DNA of 40,372 nt from Nitrospirales bacterium (GTDB lineage Bacteria > Nitrospirota > Nitrospiria > Nitrospirales > UBA8639), in assembly GCA_009377845.1 (NCBI GenBank), contig WHTE01000014.1:1-40372 (forward strand), written 5' to 3'. Within the stretch, counting starts at the first letter, position 1, and every line of letters begins with the position of its first letter. Position numbers and translations under genes: made by a program. Of the stretch, positions 13,723 through 39,940 are shown piece after piece. The notes under the pieces are model-generated. The model did no database searches, was not told where the DNA came from, and saw only the letters and a list, made by a program, of their open reading frames with translations.

Positions 13723-13739
13723 TTGGCACATGCGTTGCA
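13723..13739 (+). promoter_or_regulatory. sigma54 (-24/-12) promoter for the flgF operon
   Basis: TTGGCACATGCGTTGCA matches YTGGCACRNNNNTTGCW with the required 12-nt GG-to-GC spacing, 35 bp before the flgF start codon. Confidence 0.75.
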
Positions 13740-19678: not shown

Positions 19679-20176
19679 ATGAATCATCCCCAATCAGCGT
19701 CGTGGGAGCGACTTCTGGTCATGTTGACCGAGGCCCAATCGTTGTTTCAGCGCTATGTTGGTTTGCTTGCTCATGAAGAGCGCACCCTACGCATCATGGA
19801 TCGGCAAGGACTGACCGAGGTGAACAACCAAAAAGAACAAGTTTTGGATGCGATGTGCCGATTAGAACAGCAGGTTGAGAGAGAGCTTCAACAGCTTGTC
19901 GGATCTCACATCCACGAGTCTGTTAGGAGTTGGTTGAAGAAGGCTCAGGATCCACGCGCGCAATCGGCGCATGGCATGCTGATTGAACTTCTTCGATTGG
20001 CGCGCACCATACAGGACCAAGGCAAAAAGAATGAAACCTTGATTCGTCGAATCCAGCACAGCGTCCGTGAGGCGATGCATTTCATCTATACAGGGTTGGG
20101 AACGGGTCCGGTGTATCAGGAATCCGGGACATTAAATTTTCCTTCGGTTCCAAGTTCGGTCCATCTCCAGGGATAG
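19679..20176 (+). CDS. flgN: flagellar export chaperone FlgN
   Basis: Helical 165-aa protein between flgM and flgK with EERTLRIMDRQGLTEVNNQKEQVLDAMCRLEQQ. Confidence 0.8.
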   Translation: MNHPQSASWERLLVMLTEAQSLFQRYVGLLAHEERTLRIMDRQGLTEVNNQKEQVLDAMCRLEQQVERELQQLVGSHIHESVRSWLKKAQDPRAQSAHGMLIELLRLARTIQDQGKKNETLIRRIQHSVREAMHFIYTGLGTGPVYQESGTLNFPSVPSSVHLQG

Positions 20177-21893: not shown

Positions 21894-23045
21894 ATGCGTG
21901 TGACTGATCGCCAACAAGTTGATGCCCTGATCACGGCCATTCGAGGTCTTCGAGGAAATATTTTTGATCGCAATGAGCAAATTGCTTCAGGAAAGCGTGT
22001 GAATCGTCCTTCGGATGATCCTGCGGCAGCCGAACGGATCAATCAATTTCGGAATGTCTTGCGGACGACCGAACGACGCTTGGCTACCGTGAATGAGGGG
22101 GTGGGGCGGCTCAATTTATCCGATAGCGTCCTGGAGACTGCCGGGAACACGTTACAGCGGGCCAAGGAATTGGCCATTCAGATGCGAAACGATACCAATA
22201 CTGCCGTGGAACGCCGGAATGCGGCTCAAGAAGTTCAACAACTTATGTTGAGTTTGGCCGGTATTGCGAATACCCAACTCAACGGTCGATTTCTGTTTGC
22301 GGGCAGTCAGACTCACACAGAACCGTTTGTGTTGGGATCGGCAACGGGATCTGCCGGCACGGTCAATGCGGGAAGCGCGGCCATTGCCGTCTCGGTCGCG
22401 ACAGCCACGGACTTACAACCGGATTCGTATCAAATCCAATTTACGTCTTCGACACAATTCGATGTGCTGAATCTCACGACCAATCAAGTTGTGTCATCAG
22501 GGAATACCTATGTGTCCGGGACCGCGTTCTCGTTTGATGGATTGGATGTGACCCTGACTGATGGGGGTGGACCGCCTATCGCTGGAGATCAATTTTTTGT
22601 CCGGGTCGGGTATGTCTATCAAGGGGATGGAGCTGCGATCGATGTGGAAATTGGTGATGGCCGGACGGTGGAGACCAATGTGACAGGAAGCCAGGTGTTT
22701 TCCGGGCCAACAGTCGATCTGTTTCAAAACCTTCAGAACTTTCACCAGGCCTTGGTGATCAATGATGTTGAGGGAATCCAAGCGGCCATCGGGCAATTTG
22801 ATCAATCCTTATCACAGGTCACGGATGCCAGGGCCAATATCGGTGCCCTGGTCAATCGTCTGGATACGATCAAGGACGGCTTAGACTTGTTGAGCGTGAA
22901 TACCCAAACTCTCCGGTCGAATTTCGAGGATGCCGATTTCGCTCAAGTGGCTTCTGATTTAGCCACCTTGCAAAATACTCTTGAAGCCTCTATGGCCACT
23001 CTCGCGCGACAATTTGAGACGAATTTGTTGAATTTTATCCGGTAG
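21894..23045 (+). CDS. flgL: flagellar hook-associated protein FlgL
   Basis: EQIASGKRVNRPSDDPAAAERINQFRNVLRTTERRLATVNEGVGRLNLSDSVLETAGNTLQRAKELAIQMRN; after flgK. Confidence 0.94.
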   Translation: MRVTDRQQVDALITAIRGLRGNIFDRNEQIASGKRVNRPSDDPAAAERINQFRNVLRTTERRLATVNEGVGRLNLSDSVLETAGNTLQRAKELAIQMRNDTNTAVERRNAAQEVQQLMLSLAGIANTQLNGRFLFAGSQTHTEPFVLGSATGSAGTVNAGSAAIAVSVATATDLQPDSYQIQFTSSTQFDVLNLTTNQVVSSGNTYVSGTAFSFDGLDVTLTDGGGPPIAGDQFFVRVGYVYQGDGAAIDVEIGDGRTVETNVTGSQVFSGPTVDLFQNLQNFHQALVINDVEGIQAAIGQFDQSLSQVTDARANIGALVNRLDTIKDGLDLLSVNTQTLRSNFEDADFAQVASDLATLQNTLEASMATLARQFETNLLNFIR

Positions 23046-26534: not shown

Positions 26535-27011
26535 ATGAAGATTCAGACCAGTCGATTTGGAATACTGGATGTGTCGGACGAAACGCTGTTGATCTTTCCT
26601 TCTGGACTTGTGGGGTTTCCTGCTTTTCGACGGTTTGTGGTGCTTGACGCAGCAGAGGATTCCGACTATCAATGGCTCCAGTCGGTCGATGAGCCAAGCT
26701 TGGCGGTTGTGATTGTGGACGTGCATCTTTTGCAACCGGAATTTCGCATAGATGTCCCCGATGAAGGATTGGCGGAACTGGACATGACCCAAACAGATCC
26801 AATCTCAATCATGGCTGTGGTGACGATCCCTTCCGGGGAGCCAAATCAAGCCACCGCGAATCTTCGTGCCCCCCTGGTTGTGAATTTACGAACGCGAAAG
26901 GGAAAGCAAATGATTCTCCATGAATCGATTCCCTTACGATATCCCTTACTTCCGGCTCCTGCTGAGTCCAAATCCGACCATGAAGTTGTGAGAGAGCCGG
27001 CATCGGTTTAA
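26535..27011 (+). CDS. fliW: flagellar assembly factor FliW
   Basis: MKIQTSRFGILDVSDETLLIFPSGLVGFPAFRRFVVLD..WLQSVDEPSLAVVIVDVHL..VVTIPSGEPNQATANLRAPLVVNLRTRKGKQ. Confidence 0.94.
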   Translation: MKIQTSRFGILDVSDETLLIFPSGLVGFPAFRRFVVLDAAEDSDYQWLQSVDEPSLAVVIVDVHLLQPEFRIDVPDEGLAELDMTQTDPISIMAVVTIPSGEPNQATANLRAPLVVNLRTRKGKQMILHESIPLRYPLLPAPAESKSDHEVVREPASV

Positions 27012-27120: not shown

Positions 27121-27372
27121 ATGCTCATACTCACCAGAAAGATCGATGAAGCCATTCGATTGGGAGAAGATATCCGTATTGTTCTCGTCCAAATTAAAGG
27201 AGGCCAGGTTCGCCTCGGAATTGAATGCCCTCCCCATGTTCGCGTCCTTCGTGAAGAATTGTACGAAGCCGTCCGCCGAGAAAACCTCAATGCCTTGTCA
27301 GCAGATCCTGCACACATTCAAGCTCTTCCTAAAGGGATAAAATCGTCATCAAAGCAGATCGAATCAAAATAG
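27121..27372 (+). CDS. csrA: carbon storage regulator / translational repressor CsrA
   Basis: MLILTRKIDEAIRLGEDIRIVLVQIKGGQVRLGIECPPHVRVLREELYEAV. Confidence 0.96.
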   Translation: MLILTRKIDEAIRLGEDIRIVLVQIKGGQVRLGIECPPHVRVLREELYEAVRRENLNALSADPAHIQALPKGIKSSSKQIESK

Positions 27373-27395
27373 ACGAGAATTTATACCTCCTTAGG

Positions 27396-28461
27396 TTCTA
27401 ACTCCAAGTGCAACACTTTAGGCCATAGTCGGCTAAGGTGTTGCCATGCCAAAGAACTCGTATACACACATGAGTTTCGAAGAACGTGAGACCTTGAGCC
27501 TGGGCCTGTCTCAGGTGCAGTCGCTGAGAACGATGGCGGCAATTTTGGGGCGATCGCCCAGCAGCATGAGCCGCGAGTGTGCCCGCAACACCACCCGGGG
27601 GCACCCGTATCGTGCCTGTACGGCGCACAGCTTGGCCGCTGTCCGGAGTCGTCGCCCACGGCGGCCGCGCAAACTGCTGGATCCCTGGTTGTGGCGCTAT
27701 GTCCGAACAGGCTTGACCCGTTGGGTGCTCGCCTGAACAGATTGCTGGACGGCTCCGTCGCGAGTATCCTGACGACATGCGGAAACGCCTGTCGGCCGAA
27801 ACCATCTATGTGGCACTGTACGTGCTGCCGCGCGGAACCCTGCGTAGCGAACGGTTGACCGCGCTGCGTCAGGCGCGCAAAGTGCGCCGGCCTCGAGCGC
27901 GGGGCAGAGACCGACGTGGTCAGATTCCCAATATGACGCCCATTGCTGAGCGTCCCGCGGAGGTCGCGGGACGTACCGTGCCGGGCCACTGGGAGGGTGA
28001 CTTGATTAAGGGAGCTCGAAATGGGTCGGCTATCGGGAGCCTTGTAGAGCGCACGTCGCGCCTGGTGATCCTGGCACGGCTTGATGGGACCGATGCGGGG
28101 AGTGCCCGACAGGGATTTACCAGAAAGTTTCAGCATGTGCCGGCCCCGCTGCGCCAAACTTTGACCTATGATCGGGGGAAAGAGATGGCCGAACACGAGC
28201 GCTTGGCGCGACGACTCGCCATCCGGGTGTTCTTTGCCGATCCACATAGCCCGTGGCAACGGGGGACAAACGAGAACACGAATGGGCTGCTCCGCCAGTA
28301 TTTGCCGAAAGGCACCGACTTGTCGGGGTACACTCAGCGCGAACTCAATACCATCGCCCATCGGTTGAATACCCGACCCAGAAAATGTCTCAAGTGGGCC
28401 ACGCCTCTGGAGGTATTTACGCAACTGCGTCATCATTCACCTGTTGCACTTGGAACTTGAA
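27396..28461 (+). mobile_element. IS30-family insertion sequence
   Basis: Terminal inverted repeats with perfect 13-bp core TCCAAGTGCAACA (27403-27415) / TGTTGCACTTGGA (28442-28454) flanking an IS30-type transposase; exact outer boundaries approximate, no clear target duplication. Confidence 0.85.
27446..28460 (+). pseudogene. IS30-family transposase, frameshifted
   Basis: N-terminal ORF 27446-27736 and C-terminal ORF 27777-28460 are in different frames; the frame of the second continues upstream as VGCSPEQIAGRLRREYPDDMRKRLSAETIY, so one extra base near 27712-27730 splits one transposase. DDE region: VPGHWEGDLIKG, TYDRGKEMAEHE, FFADPHSPWQRGTNENTNGLLRQYLPKG. Confidence 0.85.
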
Positions 28462-28847
28462 ACCGCCCTCTTTAAAATATCTTCTTCTGGCTTTCTTGCT
28501 TAAAAATTAGGTACCGGGTGAAGTAGAGTCCGGTTCGCATTCAGTCGTTTTCTCACTCCCATAGGACGATAATTTCCTATTCAAAGGGAAAATTTTACCT
28601 CGTTTTTCTATCTCCTAATGCCGGCGAAGATGCGTTAAGCCCTCCAAAGGTCATTTGGTCAAGGTGGTTTCTGCGATGTAATGGCATAAAACTTGAAACT
28701 CTCACCACAGGAATGCAAAATTTTGTGGAGTGATGGAAAACTCCATAAGTGGATTGGCGCCGATGGACTTTACACCAATGGAGTTCACCTAAGAGAAAAT
28801 GGGTTTGAAAGTATTGGTCCATAAATATCAGGAGTAGAAGTCCACCT

Positions 28848-31800
28848 ATGAAGCCATACCTCCAATCCAATGGCTATGTTTTCAATCAAGATGACGGGCT
28901 GTGGCAACGTCCCGAGTATGAAGGCATCAATTACACTGATGGCGAGGAAATTGAAAACCGATTGAAATCCATTGTTTCCGGCGCGAGCGATGTCAGCGTT
29001 ATGTCCATCGAGTTGGCAGAATTCTGCACCGATTGGCCATCCCTGTACCATTTGTCCCGGAAACGCGTCAATCTGTTGCGGCCATTCGAGGAGCGATTAC
29101 AAGGGAAAAGTGTCCTTGAAGTCGGTGCCGGTTGTGGTGCCCTCACCCGTTATCTCGGTGAATTAGGTGCGGAAGTGGTGGCACTGGAAGGGAGCCTCCG
29201 TCGGGCATCCATTGTGGCATCGCGTTGCCGTGGCCTTCGCAACATTATGGTTGTTGGTGAGGTTGTTCATCATTTTAATCCGGGACCTCAGTTTGATGTC
29301 GTCACCCTTATAGGCGTTTTAGAGTATGCCAGAAAATTCTTCCCTGGCGATGGAGCAGATCCTGTTGATGCCATGTTGGGCTATATAAAAGAACTTCTCA
29401 AGCCCGGCGGCACCTTGATTATCGCTATCGAAAACCAGCTAGGGTTGAAATATTTTGCTGGGTTTCCGGAAGACCATGTTGGCAAATCCATGTTTGGCAT
29501 CGAAGAACACTATAGCCAAGATGGCGTTGTTACTTTTGGACGCAGAGAGCTTGCCAGGCGAGTCGGTAAGGCCGGCCTAACAGAACAGGAGTGGTGGTAT
29601 CCCTTTCCAGATTACAAGCTACCGAGCGTGATGGTGTCGAACATCGGTACCTTGCCTCCAGACGGTATTGATCTAACACCGGTCCTCCGTAGTGCGTGCA
29701 TCAACGATCCGCAATATCCACCACATATTCATTTTAACCAGGAAAGAGCCTTGCGCCCAATAATTCGCAATGGTCTTTTGGGAGAGGTAGCAAATTCTTT
29801 TGTATTACTTGCAACAGACATGGCTTGTAGGGAAAAACCGAATATTCCCCTCGCCGTGCATTTCGCAACGGAGAGGCGACCGGAATTTGCCAAGAAGGTC
29901 GTCTTTACTCAGGCGGATCACTGTGCCGGTTATACCTCTCAAGTGGCGCTGTACCCCACCCCAAAGCCAAACGGGAATTCGTTGATTACTCAGCGGCTTG
30001 TCGATCAAGCCTTTGTGAAAGGCGAACTTTGGCAAGATCGTCTCATACAAATCATGACTAGCCCAGGATGGACTGTAACGCAAATAGAAGAATGGTTGAA
30101 GGTCTGGTTGGAGGCGTTCTGCGACGTTGTGGGAATCAATAAGTCATGCGATATGACCAAGAAAAAAATATCAGGACAATATCTCGATCTTATTCCGCGC
30201 AATATGATCATGGATGAGAATGGCGTGCCCATATTTATTGACCAGGAGTGGGTGCTTGGTGAAGAACTCGAGGTTGGCTATGTCGTTTTTCGTGCTCTCT
30301 TTTCTTCATTTTATGCTATAGGCGGGACAGCGAAGACGGGGGAAAGGACCCTTCCTTCGATTCTTTGCCTTATCAGGGAAATTGGACAAGGATTGGGGTT
30401 TTCGTTTTCCGACCATGAGATCAAACGTTATCACAATTTGGAGTGTGACTTTCAGCAGCTTGTGGTAGGAAAATCTAGACTTAGTTACGAAGTGATGGCC
30501 GCAAGACAGTTCCGTGTATCCAATACTCTGTCGGCTCATAATGGTCATGGTGCTGAAGCTCATGGACAGATCGTTGTACTTACACAAGCATTATTGGAGC
30601 GGGAGAAGCAGATTGCGGTTCTTACGCATGCGGTAAAGGATCTAGACGGGCAGTTCATCCGCCTCAATCGCGTCTTGTCTGAGAAGGAACTCGCTAAAAA
30701 GCCATTGCTGTCAATTATTGGCTCTGATGGGAGGAATTGTTCATCAGGAGCAAACCCTCAGCAACTTCCACACATTGTGGCGATTGTTAACGATCCAATT
30801 TGCAGCCAAATCCGAATACTTCAGGCACTCACTGCGGGGGCAAAGAAATCCTGGCTAGGAGGGACGGTAAAAATCGAGGGAGCGGAAGGGAGTCATCCTG
30901 CGCAATTACCAAGTGGACATGGAACGGTATGGATCGTTCAGCGGACTTGTCGGATTGATATCTCTGAAATGAGTATCGCCCGTTCGACTGACACCCGGTT
31001 AGTGCATGATATCGATGATTTGCTCTGGAAAATTCCGGAAGATAATCAGAATTATCAAGTTGTCAAAAAATGGCTTGTAGACCATATGATGAGATTGCTT
31101 GAATTGGCGGATTGCGTGACGACCTCTACGATCCCCCTGCAAGTGGCTTTGGAAAGGTTAGGAATTAAGGCCACTGTCCTGCCGAATTGTTTGGTCGCTG
31201 AAGAGTGGAAGAATTTAGATCCTCATCGAAGGGTGGGCTCCAGGCCCCGTGTCGGTTGGGCTGGTCAAATAGGAGTACACCGTTCCGACCTCCATTTTCT
31301 TAATTCTGTTTTCGAGGATTTAAGCGGTGAGGTTGAGTGGGTATTTTTAGGGGAAGTGCCGGAAGGTCTACGTCGGACTGGGATCAAATCCGCTGTACAT
31401 CCTATGGTGCCGTTATGTGATTTCCCAAAGAAATTGGCCAGTTTGAACCTTGATCTGGCTTTGGCTCCGTTAGCGTTGAATGAATTTAATGAGGCAAAAA
31501 GCGATCTTCGTCTATTGCAGTATGGCGTGTTAGGGTACCCAGTCATTGCTACTGATATTTATCCTCATCAGATCGCTCCGGTCACGCGTGTGCCCAATAA
31601 TCCTCAAGCTTGGGCTCGAGCTATTCGGGAACATCTTTATAATCGGGATTGTTCTGAGAAAAAGGGACAAATGTTACGGGAGTGGGTTCTAGAACATCGA
31701 ATGTTGGATTGCTGGTTACCTCAGTTTCGTGATGCGTGGGTGGGAGAAACTGTAAAAATAAGTGATCCCTCAATTTTGACTGGAACGGGGAACACCGAAT

Positions 31801-33494
31801 CTCGATCATCTACGACTTCATATATTCCTAATGTCAAAACAAGATATGAGTGCTCCATTATTATTCCGATTTTCAATAAAGTGGAGCTCACACGTCAGTG
31901 CCTGACCCGATTGGCCGAGGTGACGGACGGATGTTCATATGAAGTCATTGTTGTGGACAATGCTTCCACAGATGGGACCAAAGACTTCCTGGCAAATCTG
32001 GGTGGGGACATCCATGTCATTTCAAATCTGGAAAACTTTGGTTTTGCCAAGGCGTGTAACCAAGGAGCTGCCGCGGCCAAAGGGCGGTTCCTGGTCTTTT
32101 TAAATAACGACACGATTCCGAAGCCAGGATGGTTACAGGCTTTGGTAAATGAGGTTGAGTCCCATCAAGATGTCGCTATTGTCGGAAGTAAGCTGCTCTA
32201 TCCGGATGAAACGATTCAACATGCCGGAGTGGTCTTTTCTAAGAATTGTTTGACTCCTTACCATATTTTTAAGGGGGCTCCTGGCGATCTTCCGGCGGCC
32301 AATGTTCGTCGGGAATTTCAGGCGGTGACGGCAGCCTGTTTCCTGATTGGCAGACAGGACTTTGAGACTATTGGGGGATTTGATGAGGGATTCCGTAACG
32401 GATTTGAAGATGTTGACCTGTGTTTGAAAATCCGGGAACGGGGGCGAAAAGTCATCTACCAACCCAAGAGCGTGTTGTATCATCTTGAGCATCAAACGCC
32501 CGGGCGCAAAGATCCGGAGGCGGAACGCCATAACGGAAATCTCCTGATGAGTCGTTGGGCTTCAAAGATTGTGGTGGATGAAGACTTGTATACCGTTCCG
32601 GAGGGCTATGCCAATCGTTATTATTTTCGGGATGGATGGCTTCGGCAGTCGCTCGAACCCTTCCAGAGTGATGTGGAAAGGACGAAGTGGAAACGAGTCC
32701 AGCGGGTGCAAGAGCTATTATTAAGTCGGCGATATGCCACAACCCAGGGCTTAAAAGGCCAGGACGACCGTGAATTGCATACTCTCCTTTCCGATGATTT
32801 GGAATGGCCGGAAGACAGTGAAGTCCTCAGATGGGCGGCCAAACTTTGCAATTCGTTACAGTTATTCGATGGGGAGCGGGCATTTTGGAAACGAACATTG
32901 AGTTTTGGAGAAGATCGAGAGACACGGGAACAGCTGGCGAAACTGGCACTCAATGTGAAGGATCTGTCTGAGGCAACTCAACATGTCCAAACTCTCCTTC
33001 GCTCTGATCCCAACGATGGCTCAGGTCATTGGTTGCAAGGAATCTTGTTGATGCAAACCCAACAATGTGCAGAAGCGACCATGTCTTTTCGTCGAGCCAT
33101 CCGATGTGGCCATGACCCTCGAAATGCCGGCATCGGATTGGGAATGGCGTGTATGGGAATGGGAGATGTTGAAGAAGCCTGGAGGGTTTTCGAGCAGGTC
33201 GTGGTAGATCATCCAGACGATGCCGAAGCGATGAATTGGTTGATCCAGTCGGGAACTTCGTTACAACGATGGGAAGGCTTAGGTCAACGGCTTTCACGTT
33301 ATGTCGAACGAAATCCTGCAGACTGCGATATGCACTTTGCCCTGGCCGGCGTGGAATTTCGTGCGGGTCGCATGGATTCGGCCAAGCATCAGTTTGAGAT
33401 GTTGAGCCTCTTGAAGCCCGGCTATGAGGGATTAACAGATTTAGAGGTTCTGTTGCAGACGGCCCCTGTTGACGTTCCTGCGCTCACGACATAA
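28848..33494 (+). CDS. multidomain methyltransferase / kinase-like / coiled-coil / GT4-like / GT2 glycosyltransferase / TPR protein
   Basis: SAM motif VLEVGAGCGALTRYLGE (codon ~89); LDLIPRNMIM..FIDQEW kinase-like catalytic motifs (codons ~446-468); heptad region QIVVLTQALLEREKQIAVLTHAVKDL; GT4-like LVHDIDDLLW..GWAGQIGVHRSD..DLALAPL; GT2 YECSIIIPIFNKVELTRQCL..VVDNASTDGT..FLNNDTIPKPGW; TPR-like tail. Confidence 0.88.
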   Translation: MKPYLQSNGYVFNQDDGLWQRPEYEGINYTDGEEIENRLKSIVSGASDVSVMSIELAEFCTDWPSLYHLSRKRVNLLRPFEERLQGKSVLEVGAGCGALTRYLGELGAEVVALEGSLRRASIVASRCRGLRNIMVVGEVVHHFNPGPQFDVVTLIGVLEYARKFFPGDGADPVDAMLGYIKELLKPGGTLIIAIENQLGLKYFAGFPEDHVGKSMFGIEEHYSQDGVVTFGRRELARRVGKAGLTEQEWWYPFPDYKLPSVMVSNIGTLPPDGIDLTPVLRSACINDPQYPPHIHFNQERALRPIIRNGLLGEVANSFVLLATDMACREKPNIPLAVHFATERRPEFAKKVVFTQADHCAGYTSQVALYPTPKPNGNSLITQRLVDQAFVKGELWQDRLIQIMTSPGWTVTQIEEWLKVWLEAFCDVVGINKSCDMTKKKISGQYLDLIPRNMIMDENGVPIFIDQEWVLGEELEVGYVVFRALFSSFYAIGGTAKTGERTLPSILCLIREIGQGLGFSFSDHEIKRYHNLECDFQQLVVGKSRLSYEVMAARQFRVSNTLSAHNGHGAEAHGQIVVLTQALLEREKQIAVLTHAVKDLDGQFIRLNRVLSEKELAKKPLLSIIGSDGRNCSSGANPQQLPHIVAIVNDPICSQIRILQALTAGAKKSWLGGTVKIEGAEGSHPAQLPSGHGTVWIVQRTCRIDISEMSIARSTDTRLVHDIDDLLWKIPEDNQNYQVVKKWLVDHMMRLLELADCVTTSTIPLQVALERLGIKATVLPNCLVAEEWKNLDPHRRVGSRPRVGWAGQIGVHRSDLHFLNSVFEDLSGEVEWVFLGEVPEGLRRTGIKSAVHPMVPLCDFPKKLASLNLDLALAPLALNEFNEAKSDLRLLQYGVLGYPVIATDIYPHQIAPVTRVPNNPQAWARAIREHLYNRDCSEKKGQMLREWVLEHRMLDCWLPQFRDAWVGETVKISDPSILTGTGNTESRSSTTSYIPNVKTRYECSIIIPIFNKVELTRQCLTRLAEVTDGCSYEVIVVDNASTDGTKDFLANLGGDIHVISNLENFGFAKACNQGAAAAKGRFLVFLNNDTIPKPGWLQALVNEVESHQDVAIVGSKLLYPDETIQHAGVVFSKNCLTPYHIFKGAPGDLPAANVRREFQAVTAACFLIGRQDFETIGGFDEGFRNGFEDVDLCLKIRERGRKVIYQPKSVLYHLEHQTPGRKDPEAERHNGNLLMSRWASKIVVDEDLYTVPEGYANRYYFRDGWLRQSLEPFQSDVERTKWKRVQRVQELLLSRRYATTQGLKGQDDRELHTLLSDDLEWPEDSEVLRWAAKLCNSLQLFDGERAFWKRTLSFGEDRETREQLAKLALNVKDLSEATQHVQTLLRSDPNDGSGHWLQGILLMQTQQCAEATMSFRRAIRCGHDPRNAGIGLGMACMGMGDVEEAWRVFEQVVVDHPDDAEAMNWLIQSGTSLQRWEGLGQRLSRYVERNPADCDMHFALAGVEFRAGRMDSAKHQFEMLSLLKPGYEGLTDLEVLLQTAPVDVPALTT

Positions 33495-33527: not shown

Positions 33528-34763
33528 ATGTCCCGAGCTCTCTTGATTCAATTAGCTCGGCTGGGTGATCTGGTCCAATCCCTTCCCGTTTTGACCTCTC
33601 TGCACTCCGTCCATCCCGAACAGGCACTCGATCTCCTTTGCCCTTCTCCATTGGTTTCGCTTGGGGAGCTTTTCCCTTGTGTGGACAGGGTTTACCCCTG
33701 GAAGGGAGAAAAATGGCATGAATTGGCTACAACGAAGAAGACGAATTGTGACCAACGGCTTGTCCAAGCCAAACGTTATTTGTCCGAGTGTGCCTTCCCA
33801 ACGTATTCGTTGGCCTATAATTTGAATAACCATCCTCGTGGAATTCTTGCCGCCCATTTATTGAGTGATCGGGTCGTAGGCCCTGGCGAGAATGGGCCAT
33901 TGAAACCGACGCTTCCGGCCTGGGCCGGGTATTTACGTCAGATCGCTCAAGACCGAGGGAAGAACCGTGTGCATTTAACGGATGCCTTTTGCGGGTTGTG
34001 TCAGGTTCTCCCGCCATCGGACATTCCATACTTGAAGGCCCCAGAGGTGCAATTGCCCCTTGAACTGGAACGGATTGTGAATGGTCAATCATCGATGATC
34101 GTTGGGATTGTTCTTGGTGCGGGAGACGCCGACCGTCGAATTCCCCTTTCTGTGTGGCAAGATTTGATTGTCGCATGTGCTGAACGGATCCCTCAGTGTT
34201 ATCTATTCATAATCGGAGGGGAGGGAGAACGAGAAGCTGCATTGGCCTTAGAACATAACCTTCCCGCCAAATATGTGAATCGGGTGGTGAATGGTTGTGG
34301 CAGGACCTCGTTGCCCCAACTTGTCGGTATCCTGAATCGGTGTAGGTGGGTGGTTGGATCGGATACGGGACCGTTGCACCTCGGTGCGATGTGCGGTGCA
34401 CGTGTGATCGGCTGGTATTTCTCCCGGGCCCGTGTCCATGAAACCGGTCCCTACGGGATTGGCCATTATGTGTGGCAACACGAGAGCGGTCAACCTCGGG
34501 AGAGTCGGGATGATCATGGAGCAAGAACTGAACGATCATCCTCTGACCATTGGCCTATCATGGAAACGGTCAATTTGATGCGAGAGGAACAGGTGGATTC
34601 AATAAAAGCCGAGTGGGATCTCTGGACCAGCCATCGAGATGAGTGGGGGGCGTTTTATACCCGTGATGACAAACCCGATGAGGCTGTTCTGCGGCGAAAA
34701 GATACGTGGGCAGCGTTATCTCAGTTGACAAATCGGGATTTTCAGATGGAAATATCCAGGTAG
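33528..34763 (+). CDS. glycosyltransferase family 9 (heptosyltransferase-like)
   Basis: ALLIQLARLGDLVQSLPVLTSLHSVHPEQALDLLC..GRTSLPQLVGILNRCRWVVGSDTGPLHLGAMCGARVIGWYF. Confidence 0.88.
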   Translation: MSRALLIQLARLGDLVQSLPVLTSLHSVHPEQALDLLCPSPLVSLGELFPCVDRVYPWKGEKWHELATTKKTNCDQRLVQAKRYLSECAFPTYSLAYNLNNHPRGILAAHLLSDRVVGPGENGPLKPTLPAWAGYLRQIAQDRGKNRVHLTDAFCGLCQVLPPSDIPYLKAPEVQLPLELERIVNGQSSMIVGIVLGAGDADRRIPLSVWQDLIVACAERIPQCYLFIIGGEGEREAALALEHNLPAKYVNRVVNGCGRTSLPQLVGILNRCRWVVGSDTGPLHLGAMCGARVIGWYFSRARVHETGPYGIGHYVWQHESGQPRESRDDHGARTERSSSDHWPIMETVNLMREEQVDSIKAEWDLWTSHRDEWGAFYTRDDKPDEAVLRRKDTWAALSQLTNRDFQMEISR

Positions 34764-34797: not shown

Positions 34798-36651
34798 ATG
34801 TGTTTCCTGGGAAATCACCAAGAGACAAATAAGGTGAGTGTGTTGAAACAGAATGTCAGTCTTCTTCGCCGTCAGAATCAGGCTTTAGCCGCTCAGATTC
34901 TGCAGGTACCAGGAGGAACCCTCGCGATCCAACCAGCCAAATCTGGAATGCCCACGGCGCTCGTCAACTCCCGGTACATCCATAGTGCTATGATCCTGTT
35001 CCGCGAAGCTGAACGCTGGGCTGAACAACGCATCAAAGACTGTCAAACGGGAGAAACCATTGTCGTGCTTGGAGTGGGACTGCTCTACCACGTGCAAGCC
35101 TTGCGTCAGAAGTTGTCCCAAGACCACGTCATCATGGTTGTGGTGCCGGATCTTTCCGAGTTTGCGGATTGTGTATCCGCTCGGTCATTGGAAGGGTGGG
35201 GTGAACGGGTGATGTGGGTGGCGGGTTCCATAGTTGATATGGTTGCCCGGGTGATACAGCAAGCCAAGCGGGTGCGAATCCTGAGTTACGAACCTGCCGT
35301 CATGGTTCATCATGATACCTATGAACACTTTACCCTGCAGCTTCGGGATCGTCTCGCTCAACAATTAAGCGGGACCCTTCATATCATGGTGGTCGGTCCC
35401 ATTTATGGCGGGTCGCTGCCGGTCGCGCGATATGTCGTGAACGCCCTGGAAGCCCTTGGGCATCGTGTGAGTTGGGTAGATCATAGTCCGCATGAAGCGG
35501 GGTATCGGAATTTAGAAACGATACGTGATACGCGATTGCGACTCACGGTCCAACAACGATTGAGTGACACGCTGGGGGTGATTAGTCTTGCTCACGTCGC
35601 CGAAGACCCTCCGGATCTTGTCTTAGCATTGTCACAGGCTCCGTTGTCGATGGCCGTGTTGGAGCAAATGCGTCGAAAAAAGGTGTTAACGGCCATGTGG
35701 TTTGTGGAAAATTTCCGTCATTTAACCTATTGGCAGCAGATGGTGACGGGCTATGACTTTTGGTTTGTGATGCAACAAGAATCATGTTTGGATGCCTTCA
35801 GGAAAGCCGGAGCTTCGCATGTGTCGTATCTTCCGTTAGCCGCTGACCCGGCCATTCATCAGCCCATGACATTAACTCCCCAAGAACGCTACGAGTTCGG
35901 TGCCGAGGTGGGTTTTCTGGGAGCAGGCTATCGGAACCGACGACAAATCCTGCCGTCATTGGTCGGTCATGGGTGGACATTTAAACTATGGGGCAATGAA
36001 TGGGATAACCCGGGGGCGTTAGTGACGGTTCTTCAGAGAGGGGGAGCGCGCATTGATACCCCCACTAGTGTGAAAATTTTTAATGCCACTTCGATCAATA
36101 TTAATTTGCATTCCTATACGGGAGAAGGATTCGATCCGGAAGGAGATGGGGTGAATCCCCGGACATTTGAGTTGGCCAGTTGCGGAGCGTTTCAAGTGGT
36201 CGATGCTCGCACCCTGCTTCCGGCTCTTTTTGATGAATCGATGATGGCGGTGATTAAAAGGCCGGATGAGCTTCTATCATCCGTACAAACCTTTTTGCAC
36301 GAACCAGCTAGGCGATTGGCCATGGCTGAATCATCCCGGAAGCGGGTGTTGGAGGCGCATACGTACGAGCATCGGATGAAAACCCTTTTAGGTGCAGTGG
36401 GCTTGGCGTGTCCGGACCGGTTAGGGGCCATTCTCCAAGGAGAACGTCATGGTGAATCGTTGATCTCCCGGAGTGGTGCATGCCCGGAATTGATTCCTAT
36501 GCTTCAGCAATTTCCTTCAACCGACCGTGTGGAGTTAGTAGATGTGGCGAAAACCATTCGGCAGAAGGGGCCTGAAGCCAAGTTGAACCGTGAGGAATTA
36601 CTGATTCTGATGATGGATGAATACCGCCAGGAAAAACGAGATTTTCTTTAA
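34798..36651 (+). CDS. CgeB-like (DUF3880-type) glycosyltransferase with Maf-like N-terminal domain
   Basis: C-terminal FLGAGYRNRRQILPSL..WKLWGN-like (FKLWGNEWDNP)..INLHSYTGEGFDPEGDGVNPRTFELASCGAFQVVD; N-terminal REAERWAEQRI..ETIVVLGVGLLYHVQALRQ. Start may be GTG 34834. Confidence 0.82.
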   Translation: MCFLGNHQETNKVSVLKQNVSLLRRQNQALAAQILQVPGGTLAIQPAKSGMPTALVNSRYIHSAMILFREAERWAEQRIKDCQTGETIVVLGVGLLYHVQALRQKLSQDHVIMVVVPDLSEFADCVSARSLEGWGERVMWVAGSIVDMVARVIQQAKRVRILSYEPAVMVHHDTYEHFTLQLRDRLAQQLSGTLHIMVVGPIYGGSLPVARYVVNALEALGHRVSWVDHSPHEAGYRNLETIRDTRLRLTVQQRLSDTLGVISLAHVAEDPPDLVLALSQAPLSMAVLEQMRRKKVLTAMWFVENFRHLTYWQQMVTGYDFWFVMQQESCLDAFRKAGASHVSYLPLAADPAIHQPMTLTPQERYEFGAEVGFLGAGYRNRRQILPSLVGHGWTFKLWGNEWDNPGALVTVLQRGGARIDTPTSVKIFNATSININLHSYTGEGFDPEGDGVNPRTFELASCGAFQVVDARTLLPALFDESMMAVIKRPDELLSSVQTFLHEPARRLAMAESSRKRVLEAHTYEHRMKTLLGAVGLACPDRLGAILQGERHGESLISRSGACPELIPMLQQFPSTDRVELVDVAKTIRQKGPEAKLNREELLILMMDEYRQEKRDFL

Positions 36652-36690: not shown

Positions 36691-38346
36691 ATGAATAAAC
36701 AAGTCCTTATCATCAACATTACCCGAATGGGCGATTTGATTCAGATGGTCCCCCTGCTTTCGCGGTTGGAGGAAGAATGGCCCGGTGTGGCCATTGATCT
36801 GATCGTCGATAAGGAATTCGCCCATGTCGCCGGCCTTATTCCCGGGATTCGACAGGTCTTGATGTTTGACTTTCAGCTGTTGATGGATGAAAGCCGGGTG
36901 CGAGCGCGGGATGTGGTCTCTCTCTACCAGGATCTTGCTCGGTGGGCTCAACCATTGCTCCAGGTTGGGTACGATCGTGTGGTGAACCTTACGTTTAATC
37001 GCCGCAGTGCGTTTCTGGTGAAATATTTTGGATGTCCGGATGAACGAGGAATGACCACGGCCCAGGATGGGAGTTTCATGGTGAAAAATCCCTGGATGAG
37101 GTATTTCGTGGATTTTCACGTGTATCGACAATTGAATCGGTTCAATATTGTCGATCTCTTTGCTCTTGGTGGTAGCGGCCCAGGGTCCTTTCATCCCATT
37201 CGCTTATATGTGTCTCCCGACATGCAAAAATGGGCACGGACCTTTTTGGGGCAATCTGGGAGACCCGATGTATGGATTGGAATCCAAGTAGGAGCCAGTG
37301 ATCCCATGAAGGCGTGGCGTCCCGAATATTTTGGACAAGTGATGGCGCGCCTCAGCCAACAACGGCAGGTGGGGTTTGTGCTGATTGGAACGAAGAAAGA
37401 AGAGGCGGATGTCAAACAAGCCATGCAGTGTTATCGGCAGGCGGGAGGACTGGGAATACTTTGCGAAGCGGTTGGACAAACCACTGTGCCGCAACTGGTG
37501 GCCCTGCTTGAACAATGTCAGTTGATGGTGACGAATGACACGGGGCCCATGCACATGGCCGTGGGCGTGAATACCCCGGTTCTTAATGTGTCTGTGGGCC
37601 ATGTGGATTTTTGGGAAACAGGACCTTTTGGGCCGGGGCATTGGGTGGTTCAGCCTGATATTATTTGTGGGCCATGTGGATTCGATAAGGTGTGCCCTCA
37701 CCATGCATGCAAAGATCAAATCGTCCCTCAAGAGGTGGCTGAGCTCTGTTTGCATCTCTTGGGTGCTTGTCCCTTTCCATCATTTTCCTCCAAGGTTCGG
37801 GTCTATGAGGGTGGAGTCAACGAGGATCAGCTAGGGACCTTTTTAATCAGAGCCGGATCTGAAGAGCCACGTCTTGCATGGTATGCGGAGTATTGGCGCC
37901 AATATTGGTATAAATCCTTTACCAGTTGCCCTAGCCGGGTCCCTTTTCCTTTAACGTCTCCACCTGATTTTCCAGAGTGCGAGCAGATGTGGCGTCGTTT
38001 GGCTTCTCAGCTCGATCAGCTCTGTATTCAAGTAGACACGGTATTGGACCTGTGTCGTCAAAGGCCTATTCCGGTTGACACGTTGAAGGCGCGACAGCAC
38101 CAATTAACAGTTGACACATTCACCATGCAACAGATCGCCCGCCCGTCGTTGGCCTTTGGCCCTTTAGCGATGGCTTTTTTCCGGGATACCTTTAGTTTGG
38201 AAGCCGCGACCGTAGGCGGCATGGCCGAGGAATATGCTCGGGCCTATCATGTGTTTCGCACCCGAGTGGCTGAAAATTATACACGGTTGGACGAGATGTT
38301 TTCTCATGATCCAAGGAGGGTTCTGTATGTACGTGCAATTGGATGA
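36691..38346 (+). CDS. glycosyltransferase family 9 with long helical C-terminal extension
   Basis: VLIINITRMGDLIQMVPLLSRLEEEWPGVAIDLIVDKEFAHVA..GQTTVPQLVALLEQCQLMVTNDTGPMHMAVGVNTPVLNVSVG..ICGPCGFDKVCPHHACKDQI. Confidence 0.88.
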   Translation: MNKQVLIINITRMGDLIQMVPLLSRLEEEWPGVAIDLIVDKEFAHVAGLIPGIRQVLMFDFQLLMDESRVRARDVVSLYQDLARWAQPLLQVGYDRVVNLTFNRRSAFLVKYFGCPDERGMTTAQDGSFMVKNPWMRYFVDFHVYRQLNRFNIVDLFALGGSGPGSFHPIRLYVSPDMQKWARTFLGQSGRPDVWIGIQVGASDPMKAWRPEYFGQVMARLSQQRQVGFVLIGTKKEEADVKQAMQCYRQAGGLGILCEAVGQTTVPQLVALLEQCQLMVTNDTGPMHMAVGVNTPVLNVSVGHVDFWETGPFGPGHWVVQPDIICGPCGFDKVCPHHACKDQIVPQEVAELCLHLLGACPFPSFSSKVRVYEGGVNEDQLGTFLIRAGSEEPRLAWYAEYWRQYWYKSFTSCPSRVPFPLTSPPDFPECEQMWRRLASQLDQLCIQVDTVLDLCRQRPIPVDTLKARQHQLTVDTFTMQQIARPSLAFGPLAMAFFRDTFSLEAATVGGMAEEYARAYHVFRTRVAENYTRLDEMFSHDPRRVLYVRAIG

Positions 38347-38875
38347 AGAAATCTGGGAAGTGAATGATAGTGTTCGGCTAGGGGAGATTCTGGCCAATTT
38401 AAGTGACCGGGCCCAGGCCAAAGGGTGTTTGGTGACGGAATTGACGGTTGGTAATCGTAAGATGACGGATCGGGAGTTAGTTCCTCCCACTCTGGCCCAA
38501 GTGGCGAGCTCGTTTGGATCCATCGCAGCCGTGAGCAAGCGATTAGAAACCATCGTCCAGTATTCTGAAGAAACGGGAAGGAAGTTCGCACAACAGCTAC
38601 GTCTTCAAGGGCAGAAATTTGTCGATGACCTCCGGAAAGGCCATGGAATCTTTCGTCAGTTAGACCAATGGTTCGGCCAAATGGCGGATTACCTTGAGTG
38701 GCTGCAGATCCATGAATCTGTGGGGCCTAAGAAGTCTGAGGTCGCTCAAGATCTGTCATGTTGGGTCAAAGAATTAATGAATGCTCGAGAAAACGAAGAT
38801 GAGATTCGAATCGCTGACATGCTGGAGTATGAAGTGCTCCCTCGTCTTTCTCGAAATAGCACCTCTCCCATGTGA
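38327..38875 (+). CDS. hypothetical helical protein between glycosyltransferases and flagellin
   Basis: MYVQLDEEIWEVNDSVRLGEILANLSDRAQAKG..; AAGGAGGG before ATG 38327; overlaps the preceding gene by 20 nt, implying translational coupling. Confidence 0.75.
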   Translation: MYVQLDEEIWEVNDSVRLGEILANLSDRAQAKGCLVTELTVGNRKMTDRELVPPTLAQVASSFGSIAAVSKRLETIVQYSEETGRKFAQQLRLQGQKFVDDLRKGHGIFRQLDQWFGQMADYLEWLQIHESVGPKKSEVAQDLSCWVKELMNARENEDEIRIADMLEYEVLPRLSRNSTSPM

Positions 38876-39111: not shown

Positions 39112-39940
39112 ATGGCACTTATCGTTAACAACAACATCGCGTCAATCAACGCCCAACGCAACTTAGGCCGTGTCCACTGCACAATTGGAAGGGTCGGTCG
39201 CCCGTCTTTCTTCGGGTTTGCGAATTACCCGGGCGGCGGATGATGCGGCGGGTTTAGGAATTTCCGAAACTTTACGAGCTCAAATTCGTAGTATTAATCA
39301 AGCGGTTCGAAATTCAAATGATGGCATTAGTTTGTTGCAGATTGCAGACGGTGGCGCGGAAGGCATTGGTAATCTGTTAGGTCGGCTTCGGGAACTTGCC
39401 GAGCAATCAGCCAGTGGAATTCTTGGCTCCAATGAGCGGTCCTTCCTGGATCAGGAATTTCTGGCCCTTCGTTCTGAAATCGATCGAATCTCCTCCGTGA
39501 CCGAATTTAACGGGGTGAAACTGTTAAGCGGAACTGGAAATGACGCCTTGAGTATCCAAATCGGTTTCCGGAGCTCAGCGAATGACACCCTATCCCTGTC
39601 CCTCAAAGATTTGAACACGGGTACGTTATCCCTAAGCAGTGTCAATGTGTCGACTTCTGGCAATGCATTAAGTGCACTCTCCAACATCGATAGTGCCATT
39701 AGCGCAGTGGCGTCTGCTCGAGCGAATGTCGGGTCCTTGCAAAACCGGCTTGATGCGGCTGTTCAAAATCTGCAAGTTGCCGGTGAAAATATCACCGCTG
39801 CTGAATCACGAATTCGTGATGCTGATATTGCCTTTGAGACGGCGAAATTCGTCCGGAACCAAATTTTGGTTCAGGCCGGTACGTCAATTTTGGCCCAAGC
39901 CAATACGTTGCCGCAGCAGGCCCTTGCCTTACTGCAGTAA
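39112..39940 (+). CDS. flagellin, with an apparent frameshift near codon 20
   Basis: MALIVNNNIASINAQRNLGR (ATG 39112, RBS AAGGAGG) then, in another frame, STAQLEGSVARLSSGLRITRAADDAAGLGISETLRAQIRSINQ..ESRIRDADIAFETAKFVRNQILVQAGTSILAQANTLPQQALALLQ. First frame stops at TGA 39241-39243. Confidence 0.88.

Follow-up and report, generated by a model that had tools for sequence, protein, structure and literature searches.

The closest characterized counterpart of the protein considered here is ORF6 of K. pneumoniae O7, which lies with the Wzm/Wzt exporter and caps the O-antigen (PMC11231755). ORF6 comprises a methyltransferase, an unannotated kinase, an Ig-like CBM, a coil, and two GT2 modules, and some of its orthologues are described as ending after the coil (PMC11231755), the form that the C. 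braakii homologue takes. The kinase is unlike known kinases in sequence and is described by its authors as quite different from that of WbdD. Addition of phosphate and methyl-phosphate to rhamnose has been shown in vitro, and the D441A substitution abolishes kinase activity (PMC11231755). Flagellin glycosylation offers two further points of comparison: the TPR domain of Caulobacter FlmG binds flagellin (PMC7591256), and phosphate and methyl groups are found on the flagellin glycans of P. aeruginosa PAO1 and of C. difficile (PMC11833859).

Architecture of a giant fusion protein

The window, a stretch of 40,372 nucleotides from a Nitrospirales bacterium, carries a giant fusion gene (28848-33494) that lies, like the modules and island genes described below, on the forward strand. 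The reading frame is unbroken from an ATG at 28848, preceded by AGGAG, to a stop ending at 33494, and specifies 1548 amino acids in the order class I methyltransferase, divergent kinase, short coiled coil, GT-B (GT4-like) glycosyltransferase, GT2 glycosyltransferase, and TPR. The named relatives are uncultured Nitrospirales and Nitrospira genomes. Three other genomes of the same genus (one of them in 7 contigs and 99% complete) encode full-length 1548-residue orthologues with 76-78% identity and the same domain order, and the fusion is therefore no assembly error. A sequence-only reading had described a methyltransferase, kinase, and coil fused to two glycosyltransferases and TPRs, and had allowed that the gene might split into separate ORFs in relatives; Pfam, a heptad test, and the orthologues bear out the fusion, with no such split among the three.

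The methyltransferase occupies residues 1-260 (28848-29627), with Pfam methyltransferase matches at residues 76-245 (E 8e-10). The SAM motif I expected near codon 89 is present as VLEVGAGCG (residues 89-97), and Y29, Y67, G93, G95, E114, and Y160 are invariant within the methyltransferase-kinase family. The kinase-like motif, LDLIPRN...FIDQEW (30186-30242), lies at the predicted codons, with D447 (30186-30188), N452 (30201-30203), and D465 (30240-30242) as the putative catalytic residues; D447, P450, N452, D465, E467, and W468 are invariant in all 14 family members. No Pfam family covers residues 250-570, and a profile of the kinase region matched no solved kinase in the PDB by sequence (WbdD did not appear even with E allowed to reach 10). 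Compared profile to profile with APH-family proteins of relatives, the kinase region, like the methyltransferase and GT4 controls, yielded no signal. A fold search with a model of residues 1-640 was swamped by methyltransferases, and an AlphaFold2 model of the kinase only (pLDDT 73.8) was therefore built. Every one of the 50 listed fold matches to this model has a kinase fold or is a complex chain headed by such an entry (RIO, Eph, Src, APH, Mph), each individually weak (E 0.026-0.32, the best being 0.026). The model thus lends weak support to a kinase fold for residues 270-560 (29655-30527); of the kinase or APH fold anticipated for codons 250-560, the structural matches offer this much, whereas the profile-profile comparison with the APH family came back empty.

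A short coiled coil of about 48 residues follows (residues 569-616; 30552-30695), forming a helix over that span in the AlphaFold2 model. The heptad region anticipated at codons ~573-620 is real: at residues 569-610, 10 of the 12 a/d positions are hydrophobic, a pattern that only about 0.001 of shuffles equal. The GT-B (GT4-like) module (residues 641-995; 30768-31832), expected at ~640-950, is less clear-cut. It contains a conserved GT-B-like motif (FNEAKSD.R.LQYG.LGYPV), but its PF13692 match (E 0.0018) falls below the Pfam cut-off, and its profile matched no GT-B structure by sequence among solved structures. The GT2 module (residues 998-1245; 31839-32582) and the TPR tail (residues about 1290-1548; 32715-33491) were both confirmed by Pfam, the former through PF00535 at residues 1003-1218 (E 2e-28) and the latter through PF13432 (E 8e-10).

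Relation to capping enzymes and to flagellin glycosylation systems

By reported residue positions, the methyltransferase residues Y28, Y66, G91, G93, E112, and Y158 of ORF6-O7 correspond to Y29, Y67, G93, G95, E114, and Y160 of the window protein. The kinase residue D441 corresponds to D447, six residues further on, a match made through D443 of the P. asturiensis homologue, which carries Y28, Y66, G91, G93, E112, and Y158 and thus follows almost the ORF6 numbering. All seven ORF6-O7 residues (positions from PMC11231755) therefore map to family-invariant residues of the window protein with small, steady offsets of +1, +2, and +6. This correspondence, which is stronger evidence than the fold matches, argues that the N-terminal 560 residues are of the K. 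pneumoniae O7 ORF6-N methyltransferase-kinase type. The two proteins also share a sequence-divergent kinase after an N-terminal methyltransferase, a coil after the kinase, and C-terminal glycosyltransferases, all on one chain. Unlike ORF6-O7, the window protein leaves no space for a CBM, possesses a GT4-like module and a TPR tail, and is encoded close to flagellin rather than beside Wzm/Wzt, in a genome with no Wzt_C match; the O-antigen exporter setting of ORF6-O7 does occur in the relatives G253, G208, and G379.

WbdD of E. coli O9a has the same methyltransferase-kinase-coil order, and the spacing of its D351, N356, and D369 equals that of D447, N452, and D465. WbdD W355 is replaced by R451 in the window protein; homologues have R, Q, F, or S there. 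Unlike the window protein, WbdD is exporter-linked and the O9a polymerase is a separate protein. Membership in the WbdD family was considered and rejected, as no PDB sequence match was obtained and WbdD is absent among the 50 listed fold matches. The earlier label of a WbdD-type protein is apt for domain order and for a likely function in sugar capping; for family, the nearest characterized relative is of the ORF6-N type.

FlmG likewise combines TPR and glycosyltransferase in one protein that acts on flagellin, but is 596 residues long with an N-terminal TPR domain and neither methyltransferase nor kinase. The phosphate- and methyl-bearing flagellin glycans of P. aeruginosa (PA1088-PA1091, where PA1091 has a GT2 fused to another activity) and C. 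difficile (Type A) are made differently: a CDP-threonine route has been proposed, and no corresponding gene set was recognized among the island ORFs.

The flagellin island and the two genomic contexts of the module

By gene order, the island is bounded on the left by csrA (27121-27372), itself preceded by fliW (26535-27011). At its head lies a 16-base sigma54-like site, TGGCATAAAACTTGAA (28682-28697). An identical site precedes the giant gene in G298, G191, and G310; in G253 and G305 it likewise heads the island, with other genes coming after it. This makes six genomes with the window included, and the window's own genome encodes sigma54. Against an expectation of 0.26, the window holds three occurrences of the motif TGGCAY-N5-TTGMW, at 28682-28697, 13724-13739, and 19972-19987. 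Downstream of the giant gene follow, in conserved order, a GT9-family glycosyltransferase (33528-34763; PF01075, E 1.7e-12), a GT-B glycosyltransferase (34798-36651; PF13524/DUF3880, E 3e-31), a second GT9-family glycosyltransferase (36691-38346; E 8e-21), a conserved small ORF of no assigned family (38330-38875), and, directly after it, the flagellin gene (39112-39940), recognized by Flagellin_N matching and comparison with relatives. Glycosyltransferases in conserved order with flagellin, a feature of flagellin glycosylation islands, are present across genera.

Two local peculiarities were observed. The flagellin frame is interrupted after ~19 codons by one extra base relative to relatives near 39165-39170, a frame shift that an assembly error may explain. 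The genome has a single further Flagellin_N match, at 21966-22313, which looks like FlgL from its place in the cluster. An IS30-like element with a broken transposase frame lies between csrA and the giant gene (about 27393-28464). G298, G191, and G310 show no such element there, and the window's own genome yielded no other full copy.

Giant genes at the flagellar locus, behind the conserved sigma54-like site, encode proteins of 1422-3496 residues in which modules are reshuffled and duplicated. Within the genus they span 1548-3496 residues and all retain a GT2-TPR module pair, to which GT4, GT2, and methyltransferase-kinase modules are variably added, lost, or repeated. Comparison of the G253 and G297 proteins with that of the window reveals a jump in identity near residue 1000, from ~30-50% to ~80%, as expected of module exchange.

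Searches of Nitrospirales genomes place the methyltransferase-kinase module in both flagellar and exporter loci. It lies upstream of the GT9, GT-B, and GT9 genes in the window, G298, G310, G191, G300, G301, G302, G440, G177, and a second copy in G208; the small ORF and flagellin follow wherever the available sequence extends far enough. In G253, G208, and G379 it comes directly after a Wzt with a Wzt_C domain, and in G305 it adjoins a Wzt_C gene, the arrangement to be expected if an exporter reads the cap. Plasmid-borne homologues from P. asturiensis (42% identity) and C. braakii (37.6% identity over 97%, terminating past the coil) also follow Wzm/Wzt. In a tree of 16 sequences, whose root is unknown and in which two long branches were flagged, 10 flagellar and 6 exporter-linked members split at support 100/99. 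Context changes on this tree are the minimum possible, a value reached in 0 of 500 label shuffles. A DNA search of E. coli genomes with the C. braakii homologue found no match at the sensitivity used. Partial homologues of the methyltransferase-kinase region (33-36% identity) occur in MT836085.1 and MT839147.1, fragments that are labelled as phage, carry no annotation, and come from human faecal samples.

Predicted role and alternatives

Encoded next to flagellin in such an island, the giant enzyme probably builds and caps the sugars of the flagellum, a prediction drawn from sequence. We consider it somewhat better than an even chance that the protein is a multi-module cytoplasmic enzyme of flagellin O-glycan assembly, with a methyl-phosphate cap added by its ORF6-N-type module. 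The TPR tail would hold flagellin, and sugars would be added to it by the GT2 and GT4-like modules, with the island's separately encoded GT9, GT-B, and GT9 enzymes assisting. The kinase, through D447, would then phosphorylate the terminal sugar, and the methyltransferase would methylate that phosphate and so end the glycan. Catalytic activity and a methyl-phosphate product are predicted from family identity with the ORF6-O7 type. Flagellin is the presumed target because of gene order, the split on the tree, and the lack of Wzt_C, which also favour the link to flagellin proposed earlier; the TPR tail is a candidate flagellin binder by the precedent of FlmG (PMC7591256).

It is unlikely that the module instead acts in trans to cap a polysaccharide of the envelope, whether O-antigen or exopolysaccharide, its proximity to flagellin being incidental. 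The closest homologues outside the flagellar clade do adjoin Wzm/Wzt exporters, and the characterized relative caps O-antigen (PMC11231755). Against this, no Wzt_C match was found in the window's own genome, which is only ~93% complete and so could have lost an exporter from the assembly, nor in G300 or G301. G191 has a single kinase-module match, the flagellar one, and the order with flagellin is conserved across genera with a clean split of context on the tree. The gene after the Wzt_C exporter in G191 and G298 encodes a different protein, of 1093 residues and with a PWTGER-type stretch (L128 10695-13976 and L129 5360-8641), possibly another kind of terminator. We regard as quite improbable the suggestion that the kinase-like domain is some other phosphotransferase, or has a different substrate such as a free sugar or a protein, with the methyltransferase modifying a sugar hydroxyl. 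The lack of detectable sequence kinship with known kinases and the flagellin glycans known to carry other phospho-groups (PMC11833859) would suit it, but D447, N452, and D465 are invariant with WbdD-like spacing, and ORF6-O7 D441A is without kinase activity (PMC11231755).

The sequence-only reading further suggested that the protein may build, cap, and measure a glycan on one chain. Building and capping stand as likely activities. Measuring, as in a true WbdD-type builder and ruler whose coil sets glycan chain length, has the WbdD domain order and the position of the coil after the kinase in its favour; nevertheless the coil is short, and the flagellar homologues in G300, G301, G302, G440, and G177 have none between kinase and GT2. 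A ruler role is therefore unsupported as a general feature, and for the window protein we judge it highly improbable.

On the preferred reading of a flagellin glycan enzyme, the capping module would be at home in the flagellin island, and the giant genes there would be reassorted from such modules. More tentatively, and at slightly less than an even chance, Nitrospirales flagellins may carry methyl-phosphate-capped glycans, each made by one multi-module enzyme and with modules passing from lineage to lineage; the cap would come from a module of the O-antigen-terminator kind, with no exporter to read it. Full-text searches of the literature collection used here turned up no description of a flagellin glycan capped with methyl-phosphate. 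If this reading is true, protein glycosylation would make use of a capping activity familiar from O-antigen export, without an exporter reading the cap. Because the number and order of modules differ among the giant genes of close relatives, those at this position would provide a natural series in which the effect of module order on glycan structure could be tested.
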